A model generated the notes under the pieces. It was not told where the DNA came from. It made no database searches and saw only the letters and a program-made list of their open reading frames with translations. A program made the position numbers and the translations under genes. Below, piece by piece: positions 2 through 9,582 of a stretch of 36,871 nucleotides of DNA. The stretch spans positions 1 to 36,871 of the forward strand of contig MNYW01000082.1 of the NCBI GenBank assembly GCA_001873295.1. The letters run 5' to 3'. The DNA is from Nitrospirae bacterium CG2_30_70_394 (GTDB lineage Bacteria; CG2-30-53-67; CG2-30-70-394). Within the stretch, counting starts at the first letter, position 1. Each line of letters begins with the position of its first letter.

Positions 2-601
2 GTGATGCAACCCGTCAGCATCACAACCACCCCGTCGTTGACGGTACAGGGTGCCTTCGAGAGCGGCTCGAACTCGATCGAGGTCGAGGCTGACCTCATC
101 CAGGTGGTCCTGTGCGTCAAGCCGGACCCCTTCATCACCTCCAGCTTCACCATCACCAACAGCAGCAGCGCCACCCAGACCTTCTCCTTCCTGTCGACCT
201 TACCGGTCTCGCCGGCGATTCCCTCCCCGACCGTGATGAACGGCCACATCAGCGGCACGGTGACCGACGCGAACAGCTCCGGCTCGGCCCTCGTCTCCAC
301 CAACGGTTCCGCCCCCCTCTACCAGGGATGGATCGATGGCGGCGTCGTGGGAACCACTGCCCTCTATTCCGATCCGTCCAGTTGGGGCACGGGCACCATC
401 CCCTATGTCTCCTTCGCCAGCCTGCCGGGCGGGGCGGTGGCGAGCGCGATCGGCATCCAGATCAACTTCACCCTCTCCGCGGGGGACAGCGTGACCCTCG
501 ACAGCTTCTTCGAGGTCCTCCCGGTGCCCGAGCCCGCCTCCGCGGGGCTGGTGGCGATCGCCTCGGCTGGCCTTGCCCTCCTGCACCGCCGGCGGGCGTA
601 G
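2..601 (+). CDS. PEP-CTERM sorting-domain protein, 5' end missing
   Basis: The reading frame is open to the left edge, so the real start and any signal peptide probably lie outside the window. The visible ~199 residues are rich in Ser, Thr, Gly and Ala with few charges, as in an exported beta-rich protein. The C-terminus has the tripartite PEP-CTERM signal: VPEPAS, then a short hydrophobic helix of small residues (GLVAIASAGLALL), then the basic end HRRRA. Known family role: exosortase EpsH/XrtA recognises this tail, cleaves it in the inner membrane, and the protein is released to the surface or matrix. The N-terminal part matches no family I recognise. A strong terminator follows 21 nt after the stop, so this is the last gene of its transcript. 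The first codon in the window (GTG, then ATG) should not be taken as the start. Confidence 0.75.
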   Translation: MMQPVSITTTPSLTVQGAFESGSNSIEVEADLIQVVLCVKPDPFITSSFTITNSSSATQTFSFLSTLPVSPAIPSPTVMNGHISGTVTDANSSGSALVSTNGSAPLYQGWIDGGVVGTTALYSDPSSWGTGTIPYVSFASLPGGAVASAIGIQINFTLSAGDSVTLDSFFEVLPVPEPASAGLVAIASAGLALLHRRRA

Positions 602-3189: not shown

Positions 3190-3944
3190 GCCGCGCGGTC
3201 GCTACCCTGCGGTGGCGCGACCTCGCCGTCCTCGCGCTGCTAATCACCGCGCTCGCCGGCGCGACCGCCCTCCTCCTCACCCTCGGCGCGGGCCACGACG
3301 AGCCACGCGGCTGGCTACGCCTGGCGATCACCCTGTTGCTCCTCACCCTCCTCGCCAAGGGGTGCGCCCTGGCCCGCGGTCAGGCGGAGGAGCGCTACCG
3401 GCGGCTCTTCGAGGGGGTCGCGCGCCACACGGGCGGGGAGCTGGAGGTCATGGCGCACCCCGCCACCGGCGCGCTTCCTGCGCGCGGCGCGGCGACCACC
3501 ACCCTCTTCACCCTCCGCTGGCACCAGGCGGGCTACGCCTGCGCATGGTCCTTCGTGCGCGACCACCAGGGACGCACCACCACCGACCGCTTCCCGGTAC
3601 GGGTGGCATGTCGCAACCCGCGCCGTTGGAGTTGGTCGATCCGCCAGGACCTCACCCGCTCCCCCTTTCCCGACCCCCACGCCCCACCCACCGGTGACCG
3701 TGGTTTCGACGAACGGTACCGGGTGGTCGCCAGCCGCGAGGCCGCCCCCGCCCTCACCAGCGCCCGGATCCGCGACCGGCTCCTCACCCTCCACCCCCTC
3801 CTCCACCTGGACCTCGACGGCCGCCCGGACGCAATCGTCGCCACCCTCTACCACCCGACCACCGACCCCTACCCGTACCCCTACCTCTTCGAGCTCCTCA
3901 CCTGGCTGGCGGCGGCGCAGGAGGGGACCACCCCCCCCGAGTAG
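3186..3944 (+). CDS. Two-helix membrane protein of unknown function
   Basis: 252 residues from a GTG whose last two bases are shared with the upstream TGA stop (GTGA), so it is probably translationally coupled to the FabX-like gene. Two hydrophobic helices lie near the N-terminus (about residues 13-33 and 45-60) with a short loop between, followed by a soluble domain of about 190 residues rich in His, Arg, Pro and Thr. That domain contains paired aromatic/Pro runs such as DPYPYPYLFELL near the C-terminus. I recognise no family or catalytic motif. The close coupling suggests a membrane-side partner for fatty-acid or redox work, but this is inference only. After the stop the next feature is the terminator of the convergent ACT gene, so the two transcription units meet here. 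Confidence 0.6.
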   Translation: MSRAVATLRWRDLAVLALLITALAGATALLLTLGAGHDEPRGWLRLAITLLLLTLLAKGCALARGQAEERYRRLFEGVARHTGGELEVMAHPATGALPARGAATTTLFTLRWHQAGYACAWSFVRDHQGRTTTDRFPVRVACRNPRRWSWSIRQDLTRSPFPDPHAPPTGDRGFDERYRVVASREAAPALTSARIRDRLLTLHPLLHLDLDGRPDAIVATLYHPTTDPYPYPYLFELLTWLAAAQEGTTPPE

Positions 3945-3991
3945 GCCGGCGCTGGCCGTGGTGCGCGGGGGCCACGCAAGGCACGCGCAAC

Positions 3992-4025
3992 AAAAAGGCC
4001 CGTGGCCGCAGCGCGGCCACGGGCC
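3992..4025 (-). terminator. Rho-independent terminator of the ACT/H1-tail gene
   Basis: A perfect 13-bp stem (3997-4009 with 4013-4025) with a 3-nt loop. On the minus strand it is followed by five T (3992-3996). It lies 25 nt past the stop of the minus-strand ACT gene. On the plus strand it lacks a T-tract, so it serves the minus strand only. Confidence 0.9.
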
Positions 4026-4050
4026 TGATCACCCTCCACAACGCGCCGAG

Positions 4051-4662
4051 TTACGCCTTCTTCGCGGTGGCACGCTTCTTCGGGGCAGCCTTCTTCTTCG
4101 CCGTCGCCCGCTTCTTCGGGGCAGCCTTCTTCTTCGCCATCGCCCGCTTCTTCGTACCGGCCCGCTTCTTCGCGGTGGCGCGCTTCTTCGGGGCGGCCTT
4201 CTTCTTCGCGCCCGCCTTCCGCTTCGCGCCCGCCTTCTTCTTCGAAGCCGCCTGGAGCACCTGCACCGCCTTGTTGGAATCCTGGACCGAGTCGAAGGCG
4301 AGGTAGATCACCGCGTTGCGGCCCAGGGCCGCCGCCGAGTAGCCACGCAAATTGATCCCCGCCGCCGCCAGCTTGGTGCTGATCTCGGTGCACAGCCCCA
4401 TCTTGTTCGGCGCCACCACCCGCAGCGACCCCATGGTGTCCGCCTTGGCGAAGCCGGCGTTCTTCGCCACCCGCATCCCCTTGGCGCCGGAAATCGGCGC
4501 GACAAAGAGGACGCCGTTTTTCCCGTTCGTGTCCCGCCGCGCAATGATGAACTCGAGGTCCACCCCTGCGTTCGACAAGGCGGCGAGCTTCTCCGCCATC
4601 CCACCGGGCTCATCCTTGATCGAGCCCGCCCAGACGTTGACACGCGCTACGTTCATTGCCAT
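4051..4662 (-). CDS. Tandem ACT-domain protein with histone H1-like Lys/Ala tail
   Basis: 203 residues. Residues 3-60 and about 80-138 each read as an ACT domain: DEPGGMAEKLAALSNAGVD in the first, NKMGLCTEISTKLAAAGIN followed by LRGYSAAALGRNAVIYLAF in the second. ACT domains bind amino acids or other small ligands in regulatory proteins. Residues 141-203 are a basic low-complexity tail of about ten hexapeptides of the form A-x-x-K-K-[KR] (for example AAPKKR, ATAKKK), like histone H1 or bacterial AlgP/HupB tails that bind DNA without sequence preference. A strong AGGAGG lies 7 nt before the ATG at 4662 and fixes this start over an upstream ATG. The gene lies 97 nt after ruvB on the same strand and ends at its own terminator. 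I infer a ligand-responsive nucleoid protein; a tail recruited for RNA or polyanion binding is the alternative. Confidence 0.8.
   Translation of the reverse strand: MAMNVARVNVWAGSIKDEPGGMAEKLAALSNAGVDLEFIIARRDTNGKNGVLFVAPISGAKGMRVAKNAGFAKADTMGSLRVVAPNKMGLCTEISTKLAAAGINLRGYSAAALGRNAVIYLAFDSVQDSNKAVQVLQAASKKKAGAKRKAGAKKKAAPKKRATAKKRAGTKKRAMAKKKAAPKKRATAKKKAAPKKRATAKKA
4054..4242 (-). repeat. In-frame 18/36-bp repeats encoding the H1-like tail
   Basis: The DNA for the Lys/Ala tail is built of 18-bp units (six codons). Two 30-bp blocks are identical at 4073-4102 and 4109-4138 (36-bp offset), and a third at 4181-4210 differs by two bases. Such arrays tend to change copy number by slippage or recombination, so tail length may vary between strains. 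Confidence 0.85.
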
Positions 4663-4685
4663 GTCCTTCCCTCCTCTGTGGAGTG

Positions 4686-4718
4686 GGGCCCGCGGGCCCG
4701 TTGATGGTGGTACCGCCA
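4686..4718 (-). promoter_or_regulatory. Paired palindromes in the leader of the ACT/H1-tail gene
   Basis: Upstream of the Shine-Dalgarno site lie a perfect 14-nt palindrome (4686-4699, GGGCCCGCGGGCCC) and a near-perfect one around GGTACC (4705-4718, TGGTGGTACCGCCA). Either could be an operator or an RNA hairpin in the ruvB-ACT gap. No clear promoter was found beside them. Confidence 0.35.
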
Positions 4719-4759
4719 ATCGCGGTCGTTCGCTCCCCTTTCGGCAAGGAGCCTAGCGC

Positions 4760-5806
4760 CTACAGGTAGAGCATCTCTTGCGATCCCTCGCTCCCCTCGG
4801 GAGCCGAACGCCCGAGGGCCGCGTAGCCGGCGGCGGAGACAACCCGACCGCGCGGCGTCTTCTGTAAGAGTCCCTGGAGGATGAGGTAGGGCTCCACCAC
4901 ATCCTCCACCGTATCGCGCTCCTCGTTGACCGCCGCGGCGATGGTGGAGAGGCCCGCCGGGCCGCCGCCGTACTTGTCGATGAGGATCGTGAGGAGGTGG
5001 CGATCGAGGGCGTCGAGGCCGAGGCGATCGACGGCCAAGCGGGTGAGGGCACGATCCGCCACCGCACGGTCGATCCGCCCGTCCCCTTCCACCTCGGCGA
5101 AGTCACGCACCCGGCGCAGCAACCGGTTGGCGATGCGTGGCGTGCCGCGCGCCCGGCGGGCGATCTCGGCCGCGCCGTGGTCGCTGACAGAGCAGCCGAG
5201 GATGGTGGCGGAGCGGTTGCAGATGCGGGTGAGCTCGGCCGCGTCGTAGAACTCCATCCGGCCGATGATCCCGAAGCGATCGCGCAGGGGCGGCGTCAAA
5301 AGCCCCATGCGAGTGGTCGCCCCGACCAGGGTGAAGGGTGGCAGCGGCAACTTCACCGACCGCGCCGCCGGCCCCTCGCCGATGATCAGGTCGAGCTCGA
5401 AGTCCTCCATCGCCGGATAGAGGATCTCCTCCACCGTCGGCGAGAGGCGATGGATCTCGTCGATGAACAGGCAGTCGCCACGTTCGAGGTTGGTGAGCAG
5501 GGCCGCGAGGTCGCCGGGCTTCTCGATCACCGGCCCAGAGGTGACACGCAGGTTCGCCCCCATCTCGTGGGCGATGATGTGCGCCAGGGTGGTCTTGCCC
5601 AGCCCGGGCGGGCCGGAGAAGAGGCAGTGGTCAAGCGCCTCCCCGCGGCGGCGCGCCGCCTCGATGAAGACGCGCAGGTTGGCGACCAGGCCGGACTGCC
5701 CGACGTAGTCCGCGAGCCGCCTGGGCCGCAGGCCATCTTCCGCAACCCCGTCCCCGGGGACGGCGGCGGCAACGAGGAGCTCACTGCGCTCGATTGGCTC
5801 GGCCAT
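4760..5806 (-). CDS. ruvB: Holliday junction branch-migration ATPase RuvB
   Basis: 348 residues, the usual RuvB length. It is the AAA+ motor that drives branch migration of Holliday junctions with RuvA. Walker A is GPPGLGKTT (residues 65-73), Walker B is FIDEIH (114-119), sensor 1 is GATTRMG, and the arginine-finger region is RDRFGI. The C-terminal winged helix ([14 protein letters not shown] then [17 protein letters not shown]) is the DNA-binding domain. The N-terminal [12 protein letters not shown] is also family-typical. I start at MAEPIERSE (ATG 5806) because the upstream in-frame extension is not conserved-looking. It belongs with yebC-ruvC-ruvA but is separated from ruvA by about 600 nt, so it may have its own promoter; a weak -10 (TATAAA on the minus strand, 5846-5851) lies 40 nt upstream without a good -35. 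Confidence 0.97.
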
Positions 5807-5965
5807 GGCGGCTTGCGTCTCGCATCCGGCGACACACGCGGCGCCTTTATACATTCATCGGCGCGTTGTGTCTTTTTTTTTGCAACACCGCTCAACCCCA
5901 CCGCCCGCACCGCCGCGCACGAGCGCGGACCTTGCCAGCGCATGAGCTGACCGACCTCGCCACAT

Positions 5966-5995
5966 CGCCGCCGCCCGTGCGCGCAAGGGCGGATT
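5966..5995. repeat. Palindromic intergenic repeat, copy 1
   Basis: A ~29-nt unit reading GCCGCCGCCCGTGCGCGC then AAGGGCGGATT. The ends CCGCCC and GGGCGG can pair across a 10-nt loop, as in REP-like elements. Copy 2 lies about 60 nt downstream and differs by one base. Confidence 0.7.
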
Positions 5996-6027
5996 GATCG
6001 CGCCGGAAGCGCGTCATTCCAGGGCAT

Positions 6028-6056
6028 GCCGCCGCCCGTGCGCGCGAGGGCGGATT
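6028..6056. repeat. Palindromic intergenic repeat, copy 2
   Basis: Second copy of the same unit (CCGCCC arm, 10-nt loop, GGGCGG arm, then ATT). It is preceded by GTCATTCCAGGGC, which resembles the edges of short palindromic repeats scattered in some proteobacterial genomes. That likeness is an impression, not a match I could test. Confidence 0.7.
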
Positions 6057-6402
6057 CTCGAACGCCAGCACCTCCCGCCCCGGTCCGTCACTTCGCCCGC
6101 GCGCGAGCGCGGACCGCGCGGTGGTACCGGCAAGGCACCGGACTTGCGCGCCCCGGCGCACGCGGAGAGGGCAGGCAAGCTCGCGCGTGTGCGACTGCCC
6201 CGCGCCGCGGGCGCGCACCGCGCGCAGGAGACGACGCGCAATCCCGCGCACGTAGCCATCGCCCAGCGGTCACGCGCGCGCCCAGCGAAGCCAGCGCGCC
6301 GCGCCTCGTGTTGGGGCCGCGCAATACGCCGCGAGCAGCCACGTGCAAAGGCGGAGGCAGGGTGCGGCGCGCGCTCGGACCGCGCGCGTCGGCGAGCCTC
6401 GC

Positions 6403-6981
6403 TCACCGCCCGAGCAACGCCAGGCCGTCGCGGATCCAGGCGTTGAGATCCGTTGCCCCGCCCTTGTCGCGCACCTTCTCCAGGGCGCGATCCACCACCT
6501 CCGGGCGGTAGCCGAGGTTGATCAGGGCCGAGCGCGCGTCCTGCTCGCTGTCGTGCGTGGGGCCTCCCTCCACCTCGCCCTTGCCCACCCGTTCGCGCAG
6601 TTCGAGGACCAGACGCTCGGCGGTCTTCTTGCCAATCCCGGGAACGGTGGCGAGACGGGCGGCGTCGCCGGCGCGGATCGCGCTAACCAGCGCGGCGCGC
6701 GACAATCCGGAGAGGAGCGCCAACGCGAGGCGCGGGCCGATCTTCTGCACGGTCAACAAGAGGCGGAAGAGGTGGCGCTCCTCCTCCGTAACGAAGCCGT
6801 AGAGGTGAATCGCGTCCTCGCGTACCTGGGTGTGGACGAACAGGGCGGCGCTCTCCCCCACCTCGGGCAGGCCAAGGAAGGTGGAGAGAGGACAGAGCAG
6901 GCGGTAGCCGACGCCGTGGCAGTCCACCACCACCTCCTCCGGCTGCTTCGCCAACAAAACACCGTGCAGGCGCGCGATCAC
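6403..6981 (-). CDS. ruvA: Holliday junction DNA helicase subunit RuvA
   Basis: 192 residues, the usual length. RuvA tetramers hold the four-way junction flat and load RuvB. The N-terminal OB fold begins IARLHGVLL and includes DCHGVGYRLLCP and the family-typical REDAIHLYGF. Helix-hairpin-helix motifs follow: VQKIGPRLALALLSG, then VPGIGKKTAERLVLELRER. The C-terminal RuvB-binding domain III is ARSALINLGYRPEVVDRAL. The start is a GTG at 6981 that overlaps the ruvC stop (GTGA), giving a 4-nt coupled junction; longer in-frame extensions upstream only shadow ruvC. The downstream neighbour ruvB is unusually far away. Confidence 0.97.
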   Translation of the reverse strand: MIARLHGVLLAKQPEEVVVDCHGVGYRLLCPLSTFLGLPEVGESAALFVHTQVREDAIHLYGFVTEEERHLFRLLLTVQKIGPRLALALLSGLSRAALVSAIRAGDAARLATVPGIGKKTAERLVLELRERVGKGEVEGGPTHDSEQDARSALINLGYRPEVVDRALEKVRDKGGATDLNAWIRDGLALLGR

Positions 6982-7481
6982 TGGACCACTCCACGGGTAA
7001 GGCGGCGCGCCACGCCCGCGTGCTGCAGGTGGCAGATCGCGAGCGCCAGGGCGTCGGTCACGTCCGTCGGACGCGGCGCCAAAGCCAGGCCGAGGAGTCG
7101 CCTGACCATCTCCGCCACCTGGCCCTTCTCCGCCTGGCCATACCCAACCACCGTCTGCTTCACCAGACGCGGCGCGTAGCCCGCCACCTCCAGCCCCGCC
7201 TCGGCCACGGCGAGCAACGCCACGCCGCGCGCCTGACCGAGGACCAGGGCGGCGCGCGCGTGGCACCCGACAAAGAGCTCCTCCACCGCCACCGCCGCCG
7301 GCCGATGGCGTGCGATCACCACAGCGAGGGCGTCGTGGATGGTCAGCAGGCGGCGGGGCAAGGGATCCTCGCCACGGGTCCGGATGGCGCCGCTGGCGAT
7401 ATGGACGAGGCGGCTGCCATCAAGGGCCACCACCCCGTAGCCGGTCACCGCCGAGCCTGGGTCGATACCGAGAACGAGCAT
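6978..7481 (-). CDS. ruvC: Holliday junction endonuclease RuvC
   Basis: 167 residues. RuvC is the dimeric Mg2+-dependent nuclease that resolves Holliday junctions by paired nicks. The RNase H-like fold and catalytic acids are visible: Asp7 in GIDPGSAVTGYG, Glu67 or Glu68 in VEELFVG, and Asp140 and Asp143 in PTDVTDALALAICH. GQARGVALL and YGQAEKGQVAEMV are also family signatures. The ATG at 7481 gives the conserved N-terminus LVLGIDPG, although no clear Shine-Dalgarno site is visible. It is coupled to ruvA by a 4-nt overlap and lies downstream of yebC. Confidence 0.97.
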   Translation of the reverse strand: MLVLGIDPGSAVTGYGVVALDGSRLVHIASGAIRTRGEDPLPRRLLTIHDALAVVIARHRPAAVAVEELFVGCHARAALVLGQARGVALLAVAEAGLEVAGYAPRLVKQTVVGYGQAEKGQVAEMVRRLLGLALAPRPTDVTDALALAICHLQHAGVARRLTRGVVQ

Positions 7482-7484
7482 GGG

Positions 7485-7748
7485 CTAGGGGCGGGTACGG
7501 ACAGGGGAGGACGAGACGCAGCAGGGACCCCTGTGGCCGGCGCCAACGTTTACCCCCGGAGCCACCCTCCCACCCGCACCTCTCGGGGTGGGGTGGCCAG
7601 GGTCCACGAAAGGCCGCGCACCCGCCCCGCTGGACAAGATCGCCGGAGGGGGTACGGCCCCATCCCGGGCGGCCACCACCACCTCGCGGATCGCGACGGA
7701 GCGCGTGCCCCCCCCGATGCGTGGCCCAGCCCCCGCGACCTGTCGCAC
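7485..7748 (-). CDS. Doubtful 87-residue reading frame between yebC and ruvC
   Basis: A GTG one base after the yebC stop opens a frame of 87 codons that ends 3 nt before the ruvC ATG, so it would exactly fill the gap. A GAGGGG run lies a few bases upstream of the GTG. The product is rich in Gly, Ala, Pro, Arg and Val, has no recognisable domain and looks much like chance translation in this GC-rich DNA. I list it only because of the operon-like fit; more likely the gap is non-coding. Confidence 0.22.
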   Translation of the reverse strand: MRQVAGAGPRIGGGTRSVAIREVVVAARDGAVPPPAILSSGAGARPFVDPGHPTPRGAGGRVAPGVNVGAGHRGPCCVSSSPVRTRP

Positions 7749-7749
7749 C

Positions 7750-8499
7750 TCACCCCTCGTAGCTCGCCAGCACCTCGTCCGGGATGTCCTCGTTGGAGTA
7801 GACCTCGTTCACGTCGTCCGAGTCATCGAGGGCATCGAAGAGCCGCAGCAGGGTGTGGCCGGTCTTCTCGTCCACCGGGACCCGCGTCTTCGGGACCATG
7901 GCGACCGTGGCCTCCTGCGCGGTGAAGCCGGCAGCCTCGAGCCCCTCCTTCACCCGCTCCATCTCTGCCGGGGCGGTGCGGACCTCGACACTCTCCCCCT
8001 CCTCCACCACGTCCTCGGCCCCCGCCTCCAGGGCCGCCTCCATCAGACCGTCCACGTCCACCTCGCCGCGCGCGAAGGTGATCACCCCACGCCGATCAAA
8101 AAGATAAGAGACCGAGCCGTTCTCCCCCATGTTGCCGTTGTAGCGGGTGAAGGCGTGGCGGATCTCCGCCACCGTGCGGTTGCGGTTGTCGGTGAGCCCC
8201 TCGATGAGGATCGCCACTCCGCCGGGCCCAAACCCCTCGTAGGTCACCTCCTCGTAGGTGACCCCCTCCAACTCGCCGGTCCCCTTTTTGATTCCCCGGA
8301 CGATGTTTTCCGCGGGCATGTTGGCCGCCTTCGCCTTCAACAAGATCGCGCGCAGGCGCGGGTTGCCGGCCGGGTCGCCGCCCCCGATGCGCGCCGCCAC
8401 CGAGATCTCGCGCAGGATCTTGGTGAAGACCTTGCCGCGCTTGGAGTCGATCGCCGCCTTCTTGTGCTTGGTCGTTGCCCACTTGGAGTGGCCGGACAT
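7750..8499 (-). CDS. yebC: YebC/PmpR family protein (TACO1-like)
   Basis: 249 residues, the usual length. It begins with the invariant MSGHSKWATTKHKKAAID, followed by KRGKVFTKILREI and then NPRLRAILLKAKAANMP. VTYEGFGPGGVAILIE and TDNRNRTVAEIRHAF are further family blocks. YebC proteins were described as DNA-binding regulators (PmpR) and more recently as ribosome-associated factors easing translation of proline-rich stretches, as the mitochondrial TACO1 does. The start at 8499 is set by the conserved N-terminus and a GAGGG about 5 nt upstream; the frame stays open far upstream across rpsB, but that is shadow. It is the first gene of the yebC-ruvC-ruvA-ruvB set and is divergent from rpsB. Confidence 0.97.
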   Translation of the reverse strand: MSGHSKWATTKHKKAAIDSKRGKVFTKILREISVAARIGGGDPAGNPRLRAILLKAKAANMPAENIVRGIKKGTGELEGVTYEEVTYEGFGPGGVAILIEGLTDNRNRTVAEIRHAFTRYNGNMGENGSVSYLFDRRGVITFARGEVDVDGLMEAALEAGAEDVVEEGESVEVRTAPAEMERVKEGLEAAGFTAQEATVAMVPKTRVPVDEKTGHTLLRLFDALDDSDDVNEVYSNEDIPDEVLASYEG

Positions 8500-8576
8500 A
8501 ACACCCTCGTTCGTCGAAATCGGGATTCGCGCCGACGCCCGCGGCCGCGCCGCGCGCGCCTTGGGACAAGCGCTAG

Positions 8577-8606
8577 ACGCTACATGGACGCGCCGACGCG
8601 GTGCAA
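8577..8606 (-). promoter_or_regulatory. Candidate promoter for yebC-ruvCA
   Basis: Minus-strand TTGCAC (8601-8606) and TAGCGT (8577-8582) are separated by 18 bp and lie 78 nt upstream of the yebC ATG. The -10 is identical to the one proposed before folC. Match to consensus is moderate. Confidence 0.45.
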
Positions 8607-8694
8607 GGCGATGGCTCTTCGCCGCCGGCGATTCCTTCCCAACCGCCGCGCCGCCATGATAACTTCCGCCCCCCCCAAGAAGGGGAAATCTCGA

Positions 8695-8740
8695 GTGTCC
8701 CACGACGCAGGTGGACGGTCTTTCGACCCCCCCGGGACAC
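8695..8740 (+). promoter_or_regulatory. Inverted repeat in the rpsB leader
   Basis: GTGTCCC (8695-8701) can pair with GGGACAC (8734-8740) around a 32-nt interior that ends 35 nt before the rpsB ATG. In E. coli the rpsB-tsf leader binds S2 for autorepression. A structured leader here would fit that role, but I cannot match it to the known S2 motif. A possible -10 (GATAAC, 8658-8663) lies just upstream without a good -35. Confidence 0.35.
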
Positions 8741-8775
8741 CCTAGCCTAACCCGCGTCACGGTAAGGAGTTGTCC

Positions 8776-9582
<807 letters not shown>

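Follow-up and report, generated by a model that had tools for sequence, protein, structure and literature searches.

ACT domains commonly bind small ligands, in many cases amino acids, at the interfaces between domains. Two such domains in tandem can be found in the regulatory (beta) domain of aspartokinase (3ab4, 2dtj, 2re1), where they belong to an amino-acid-regulated enzyme, and in BT0572 (PDB 2f06), a stand-alone chain of 144 residues listed as a conserved hypothetical protein. BT0572 has no lysine-rich tail of the kind considered here, and we know of none in aspartokinase beta domains. Tails that are long, disordered and C-terminal have been described in nucleoid proteins, namely the mycobacterial HupB/MDP1 and HupS from Streptomyces, and these are lysine-rich; their head is HU, itself DNA-binding, whereas the head of the protein studied here is a ligand-binding fold.

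Closer to the present architecture, PhaF from Pseudomonas putida is described as a functional head joined to a disordered DNA-binding C-terminal domain of short repeats, which is unfolded in the absence of DNA and recognises DNA (PMC3574117). It differs in that its head binds PHA granules and oligomerises through a coiled coil, and that its repeats span 4-5 residues. AlgP from Pseudomonas aeruginosa is reported to harbor an H1-like disordered Lys/Ala/Pro tail, and both a fragment of its C-terminal domain and KPAA peptides bind DNA, although its head is helical, its KPAA region extends over 154 residues and it associates with polyP granules (PMC9239181). For AlgP and PhaF alike, the tail is proposed to anchor the head at the nucleoid (PMC9239181, PMC3574117). 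An extension at the C-terminus does not have to increase DNA affinity, however, as that of Ku from M. tuberculosis is reported to lower it (PMC9638933). No paper joining an ACT domain with an H1-like or lysine-rich tail was found among the matches listed in a search of the open-access literature. Both parts, the tandem ACT and the H1-like tail, are known, and their combination is new.

This combination is encoded by the window, i.e., the whole stretch of 36,871 nucleotides from Nitrospirae bacterium CG2_30_70_394 that was analysed. The gene occupies 4051..4662 on the minus strand, from an ATG at 4662-4660 to a stop ending at 4051 (203 codons and the stop). The coordinates given in an earlier note on this DNA are exact and the strand, which it did not state, is minus; the plus-strand frame across 4051..4662 is not the protein that it described. 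An AGGAGG ribosome-binding site lies seven bases 5' of the first ATG, and an intrinsic-terminator-like hairpin with a 14-bp stem and a T run (3996..4026, minus strand) lies 3' of the gene, where the sequence of the sister species also reads as a hairpin and T run of this kind; a promoter scan of positions 3500-8800 found none. The sister genome is the MAG Dive96_bin1.162 (locus L007; L002 is the same locus from another genome set). The Dive96 sample is described as a sulfide mineral from the Southwest Indian Ridge, taken in the vent region of Longqi (PMC9769843, whose main text does not name bin1.162). Both the gene and its tail are present in the two genomes of the genus that were examined, i.e., those of the window and the sister.

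Residues 1-138 (4249..4662, minus strand) are, by profile and predicted structure, two ACT domains, as the earlier note had proposed. The 203-residue protein reaches 31.4 bits with Pfam PF01842 (ACT), above the cut-off of 27, and residues 1-138 alone reach 32.8 bits, the match being split over two stretches. By sequence the first repeat matches poorly, the other ACT models falling below their Pfam cut-offs there, and only ACT models are among the Pfam matches. In an AlphaFold2 model built from an 11-row alignment (mean pLDDT 80.2, pTM 0.69), the core forms two units with the element order beta-alpha-beta-beta-alpha-beta. The top Foldseek rows are regulatory tandem-ACT domains of aspartokinases (E 4.2e-8, TM ~0.6, identity 12-19%), while the highest TM-score among the best 50 rows is that of BT0572 (0.75/0.72, rmsd 2.9, 16% identity). 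A sequence search of solved structures gave weak matches to the same proteins (2f06, E 0.0045; aspartokinase chains, E 0.0056-0.066) and to one putative phosphohydrolase (E 0.41). Pfam found no kinase domain of aspartokinase in the 203 residues and, at E up to 1, neither an HU domain (PF00216) nor a linker histone H1 winged-helix domain, the predicted fold being ACT; an NCBIfam profile search gave nothing near any cut-off.

Regarding the putative ligand sites, ACT domains have a conserved glycine in the ligand loop that follows their first strand, and the corresponding G20 and G89 do not vary across the 11-row alignment. The PG loop of the second ACT domain has M in the window where seven of nine tail-less rows have P, and in the sister species V replaces the proline in both ACT loops; no ligand can be read from the sequence. 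The core carries a charge of about +5.5 and, to judge from 137 codons aligned with the sister (80% amino-acid identity, dN/dS 0.37), evolves under constraint.

The remainder of the protein (residues 139-203; 4054..4248, minus strand) is a tail of 65 residues with 26 K, 6 R, no D or E and a charge of about +31.8. Its hexads follow the register A/G/T/M - A/P/S/T - K - K/R - K/R - A ten times and close with TAKKA. The lysine-rich hexads of the earlier note are thus present, in 65 residues instead of the 63 that it gave and in the register A-x-K-K-[KR]-A. The likeness to H1 and AlgP tails that it drew is borne out by the composition, the complete lack of acidic residues and the low pLDDT: in the full-length AlphaFold2 model the last core helix extends to residue 145, past which there is no secondary structure, and the tail has a pLDDT of 46-58, from which it is predicted to be disordered. 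Compared feature by feature with AlgP and PhaF, the Lys/Ala-rich repeat tail without acidic residues is shared, while KPAA-type tetrad or pentad repeats are absent, A-x-K-K-[KR]-A hexads being found instead; the window protein would work like the AlgP and PhaF tail proteins but is not a member of that group.

Relatives of the core are sparse and scattered, as the small counts of the surveys indicate. A search with the core finds a match at E 0.001 in 6 of 41 relatives, and four of these matches are weak (3.5e-8 to 5.6e-4). In the other six genomes of the class, three match at E 7e-4 to 9e-4 through frames of 420-426 residues, which may be aspartokinases, and three do not match. Surveys with a family profile at E 1e-15 found at least 3 of 386 genomes over the domain, the window's own and the sister among them. 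Around centre genomes that were picked because they have the gene, and are counted in, the profile matched 11 of 155 genomes in the class of G049, 12 of 68 in the phylum of G295, at least 5 of 294 in the phylum of an Anammoximicrobium genome, at least 2 of 369 in the class of Competibacter, and at least 1 of 301 in the phylum of a Chloroflexi genome, where the centre genome is the one match; the lower bounds come from surveys that scored a limited number of candidates per genome.

Thirty-seven distinct members, that of the window included, were compared, each with an E of no more than 1e-20 and no fewer than 110 residues aligned; duplicates were left out, as were L044, which is cut by a contig end, and the distant L003-L006 and L017-L019. 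All 36 others, of which 35 lack the long tail, can be aligned with the core over 131-138 residues at 34-80% identity. Two members have the long tail, and in 34 the protein stops no more than 6 residues from the end of the core. The remaining one, the distant homologue L060 (G817, found in the survey of the Anammoximicrobium phylum), terminates in a basic stretch of 16 residues, AGRKQGKPPARGRGRG, which is perhaps a second, independent and shorter basic tail. Five homologues on Burkholderiaceae plasmids have no tail. Phylogenetically, the two tailed members group together with 100/100 support, so that one gain suffices, and the nearest tail-less rows are 54-55% identical to them. The tail, found in the sole close relative examined and absent from the other members compared, is therefore a genus-level addition and not a property of the family; its conservation is to be read from one species pair, the only two tailed species. 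Neither of the outcomes that the earlier note named as speaking against it was obtained, since the predicted fold is ACT and the close relative has the tail. Its interpretation, a nucleoid protein with tandem ACT domains and an H1-like tail, is supported for the two parts and otherwise plausible, but in a narrower form than written. As the tail-less relatives display the state without it, the locus offers a clear example of how an unrelated head can acquire a K-K-x-A repeat tail.

The best explanation, to which we give about even chances, is that a tandem-ACT sensor is held on a polyanion, most likely the chromosome, by the H1-like tail. The starting point would be a small amino-acid-type sensor, probably oligomeric, made of two ACT domains without an enzyme, to which the genus ancestor would have added a disordered and strongly positive tail of hexads. 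Like the Lys/Ala/Pro tails of PhaF and AlgP, this tail would keep the sensor on the polyanion without base specificity, and a ligand at the ACT core might alter the oligomeric state or the partners and, in consequence, the number of tails jointly engaging DNA. Binding of DNA and of a ligand is suggested by composition and fold, respectively; oligomerisation and DNA as the target are likewise inferred, and gating by the ligand would be a further step, suggested by fold and gene order. If true, the direct fusion of a small-molecule sensor with a tail that binds the chromosome non-specifically would let DNA packaging or DNA transactions answer to metabolism in a simple way. The protein need not be the main nucleoid protein, since the genome already has HU: all 8 genomes in the phylum set encode HU proteins, and of the six HU matches in the genus the five that were read show no lysine-rich tail, the sixth lying at a contig end.

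Such tails may also bind RNA or polyphosphate, and it is conceivable, if unlikely, that the tail binds RNA or the ribosome instead of the chromosome, posting an amino-acid sensor at the translation machinery. A poly-basic K/A composition does not choose between DNA and RNA, but the upstream neighbour in both species is ruvB and no translation gene. As the earlier note had it, the gene sits next to ruvB (4760..5854, minus strand; RuvB_N, AAA_lid_4, RuvB_C), which lies immediately upstream on the same strand, at a distance of 97 and 98 bases in the two species. When RuvA, RuvB and RuvC were used in tblastn, with the window as positive control, all ruvB matches came from the two genomes with the tail. 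The loci examined for tail-less homologues, which mostly cover ~1.5 kb on each side, yielded no ruv gene. A link with ruvB is thus suggested by gene order, i.e., by adjacency in two genomes of one genus.

The sister locus opens with the end of ruvA, which lies near base 130 of L007, and ruvB follows at once; in the window, ruvA and ruvB are separated by a gap of ~550 bases (5855-6402), which holds 29-base direct repeats at 5967-5995 and 6028-6056 that are 97% identical. Since the sister has no such gap, the window seems to carry an insertion there.

Between ruvB and the ACT gene, a leader of 97 nt (4663..4759, minus strand) contains, besides the AGGAGG, the palindrome GGGCCCGCGGGCCC (4686-4699). 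It is identical to that of the sister at 83 of 97 nucleotides, and at 37 of 38 over the last 38, compared with a nucleotide identity of 84% for the core gene. The leader is more conserved between the species than the fourfold sites of either gene (51 of 68 identical for the ACT gene, 143 of 201 for ruvB), which points to regulation of its own for the ACT gene. The 14-bp palindrome is not rarer than expected by chance at two mismatches (1 match against 2.69 expected). Regarding an RNA switch, an Rfam search of the leader gave no match at E up to 1, sub-threshold matches falling on the terminator hairpin or the tail end, and folding is not clearly better than that of shuffles (z -1.89 and +0.55); an RNA switch is therefore unsupported, the leader being nonetheless conserved. 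A fuller scheme, in which the ACT core would gate assembly on DNA in response to a metabolite and thereby couple nutrients to the nucleoid or to RuvAB recombination, with feedback through the leader, is in our view doubtful.

We consider it distinctly improbable that the tail is no more than an 18-bp DNA repeat that has expanded neutrally into a low-complexity stretch without function. In DNA, the tail is indeed a tandem array with a period of 18/36 bp, its length differs between the two species (65 residues against 48, the latter with eight APKKKA-type hexads), and it is missing from the other family members compared. Yet at least 48 tail residues are kept in both species, and within the hexads the codons show synonymous variation that leaves the charge and the last alanine untouched. 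Lysine being almost always AAG in the ACT gene, the synonymous yardstick was taken from alanine. Over the 18 full hexads of both tails together, the codons of Ala-6 differ at 95 of 153 pairwise synonymous sites against 0 of 306 nonsynonymous ones, counts in which the pairs are not independent as hexads copy each other. Positions 3-5 of the hexads are K or R in 54 of 54 codons, while positions 1 and 2 vary freely in the window (pN 0.44). When 54 AAG codons were simulated under neutrality, a per-site change of only 0.05 produced a mean of 5.2 charge-losing codons, with 0.3% of runs losing no charge; at a per-site change of 0.02, this share was 11%. The hexads show constraint at the protein level, on the charge and on Ala-6. 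With its presence in the sister and a codon variation that spares charge and alanine, the tail is not due to chance and is unlikely to be a mere artefact of a DNA repeat.

Coming back to the sensor held on a polyanion, the polyanion might be polyphosphate or another storage granule, where the tail would place the sensor as AlgP does. AlgP is enriched with polyP granules and its KPAA-repeat domain is reported to be needed for granule spacing (PMC9239181), but this region, with its 154 residues, is more than twice as long as the window tail and has a different register, and we hold a granule to be a very unlikely target.

Downstream of the ACT gene the two species differ: between it and the converging gene, the sister has a class-II glutamine amidotransferase-like gene, on the other strand, and a 511-residue ORF without a Pfam match. 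The neighbours of tail-less homologues, typed at four loci, are all different, i.e., starch synthase, adenylosuccinate lyase, Thy1 and a NUDIX regulator. That the protein is a free regulatory subunit of a metabolic enzyme, comparable to aspartokinase beta, with a tail that merely aids assembly with an acidic partner, is the least probable reading. The best Foldseek E-values, which are to aspartokinase regulatory domains, and the amidotransferase-like gene that follows in the sister speak for it; the identity of 12-19% to those domains, the lack of the amidotransferase gene at that place in the window and the four different neighbours speak against it.

Some additional observations were made in the same genomes. 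Searched as protein in the phylum set of 8 genomes, the tail matched the ACT gene and its sister and also seven more loci in the window's genome (E 1e-5 to 0.07). Among the four of these that were translated (L026, L027, L029 and L031), three are repeat arrays with frames of 0-4% lysine and the fourth is a short frame with stops; they were rejected as chance, although a further tail of this type may exist. The arrays (L026/L027 on contig C100, L029 on contig C82 of G000) are long short-tandem-repeat arrays with several frames open (NRATPR, FRGVARF), and they occur at at least two places in this genome. That of L029 starts inside what we take to be the start of an acpS gene; either the array was inserted there or the assembly was joined at a repeat. 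In one of the five Burkholderiaceae plasmids, that of Paraburkholderia (L088, ~4001-4413), the tandem-ACT homologue is split into two frames, as either a pseudogene or a sequencing error. Finally, the first ORF of the window (2-601) ends in VPEPASAGLVAIASAGLALLHRRRA, which, we assume, resembles a PEP-CTERM sorting signal.
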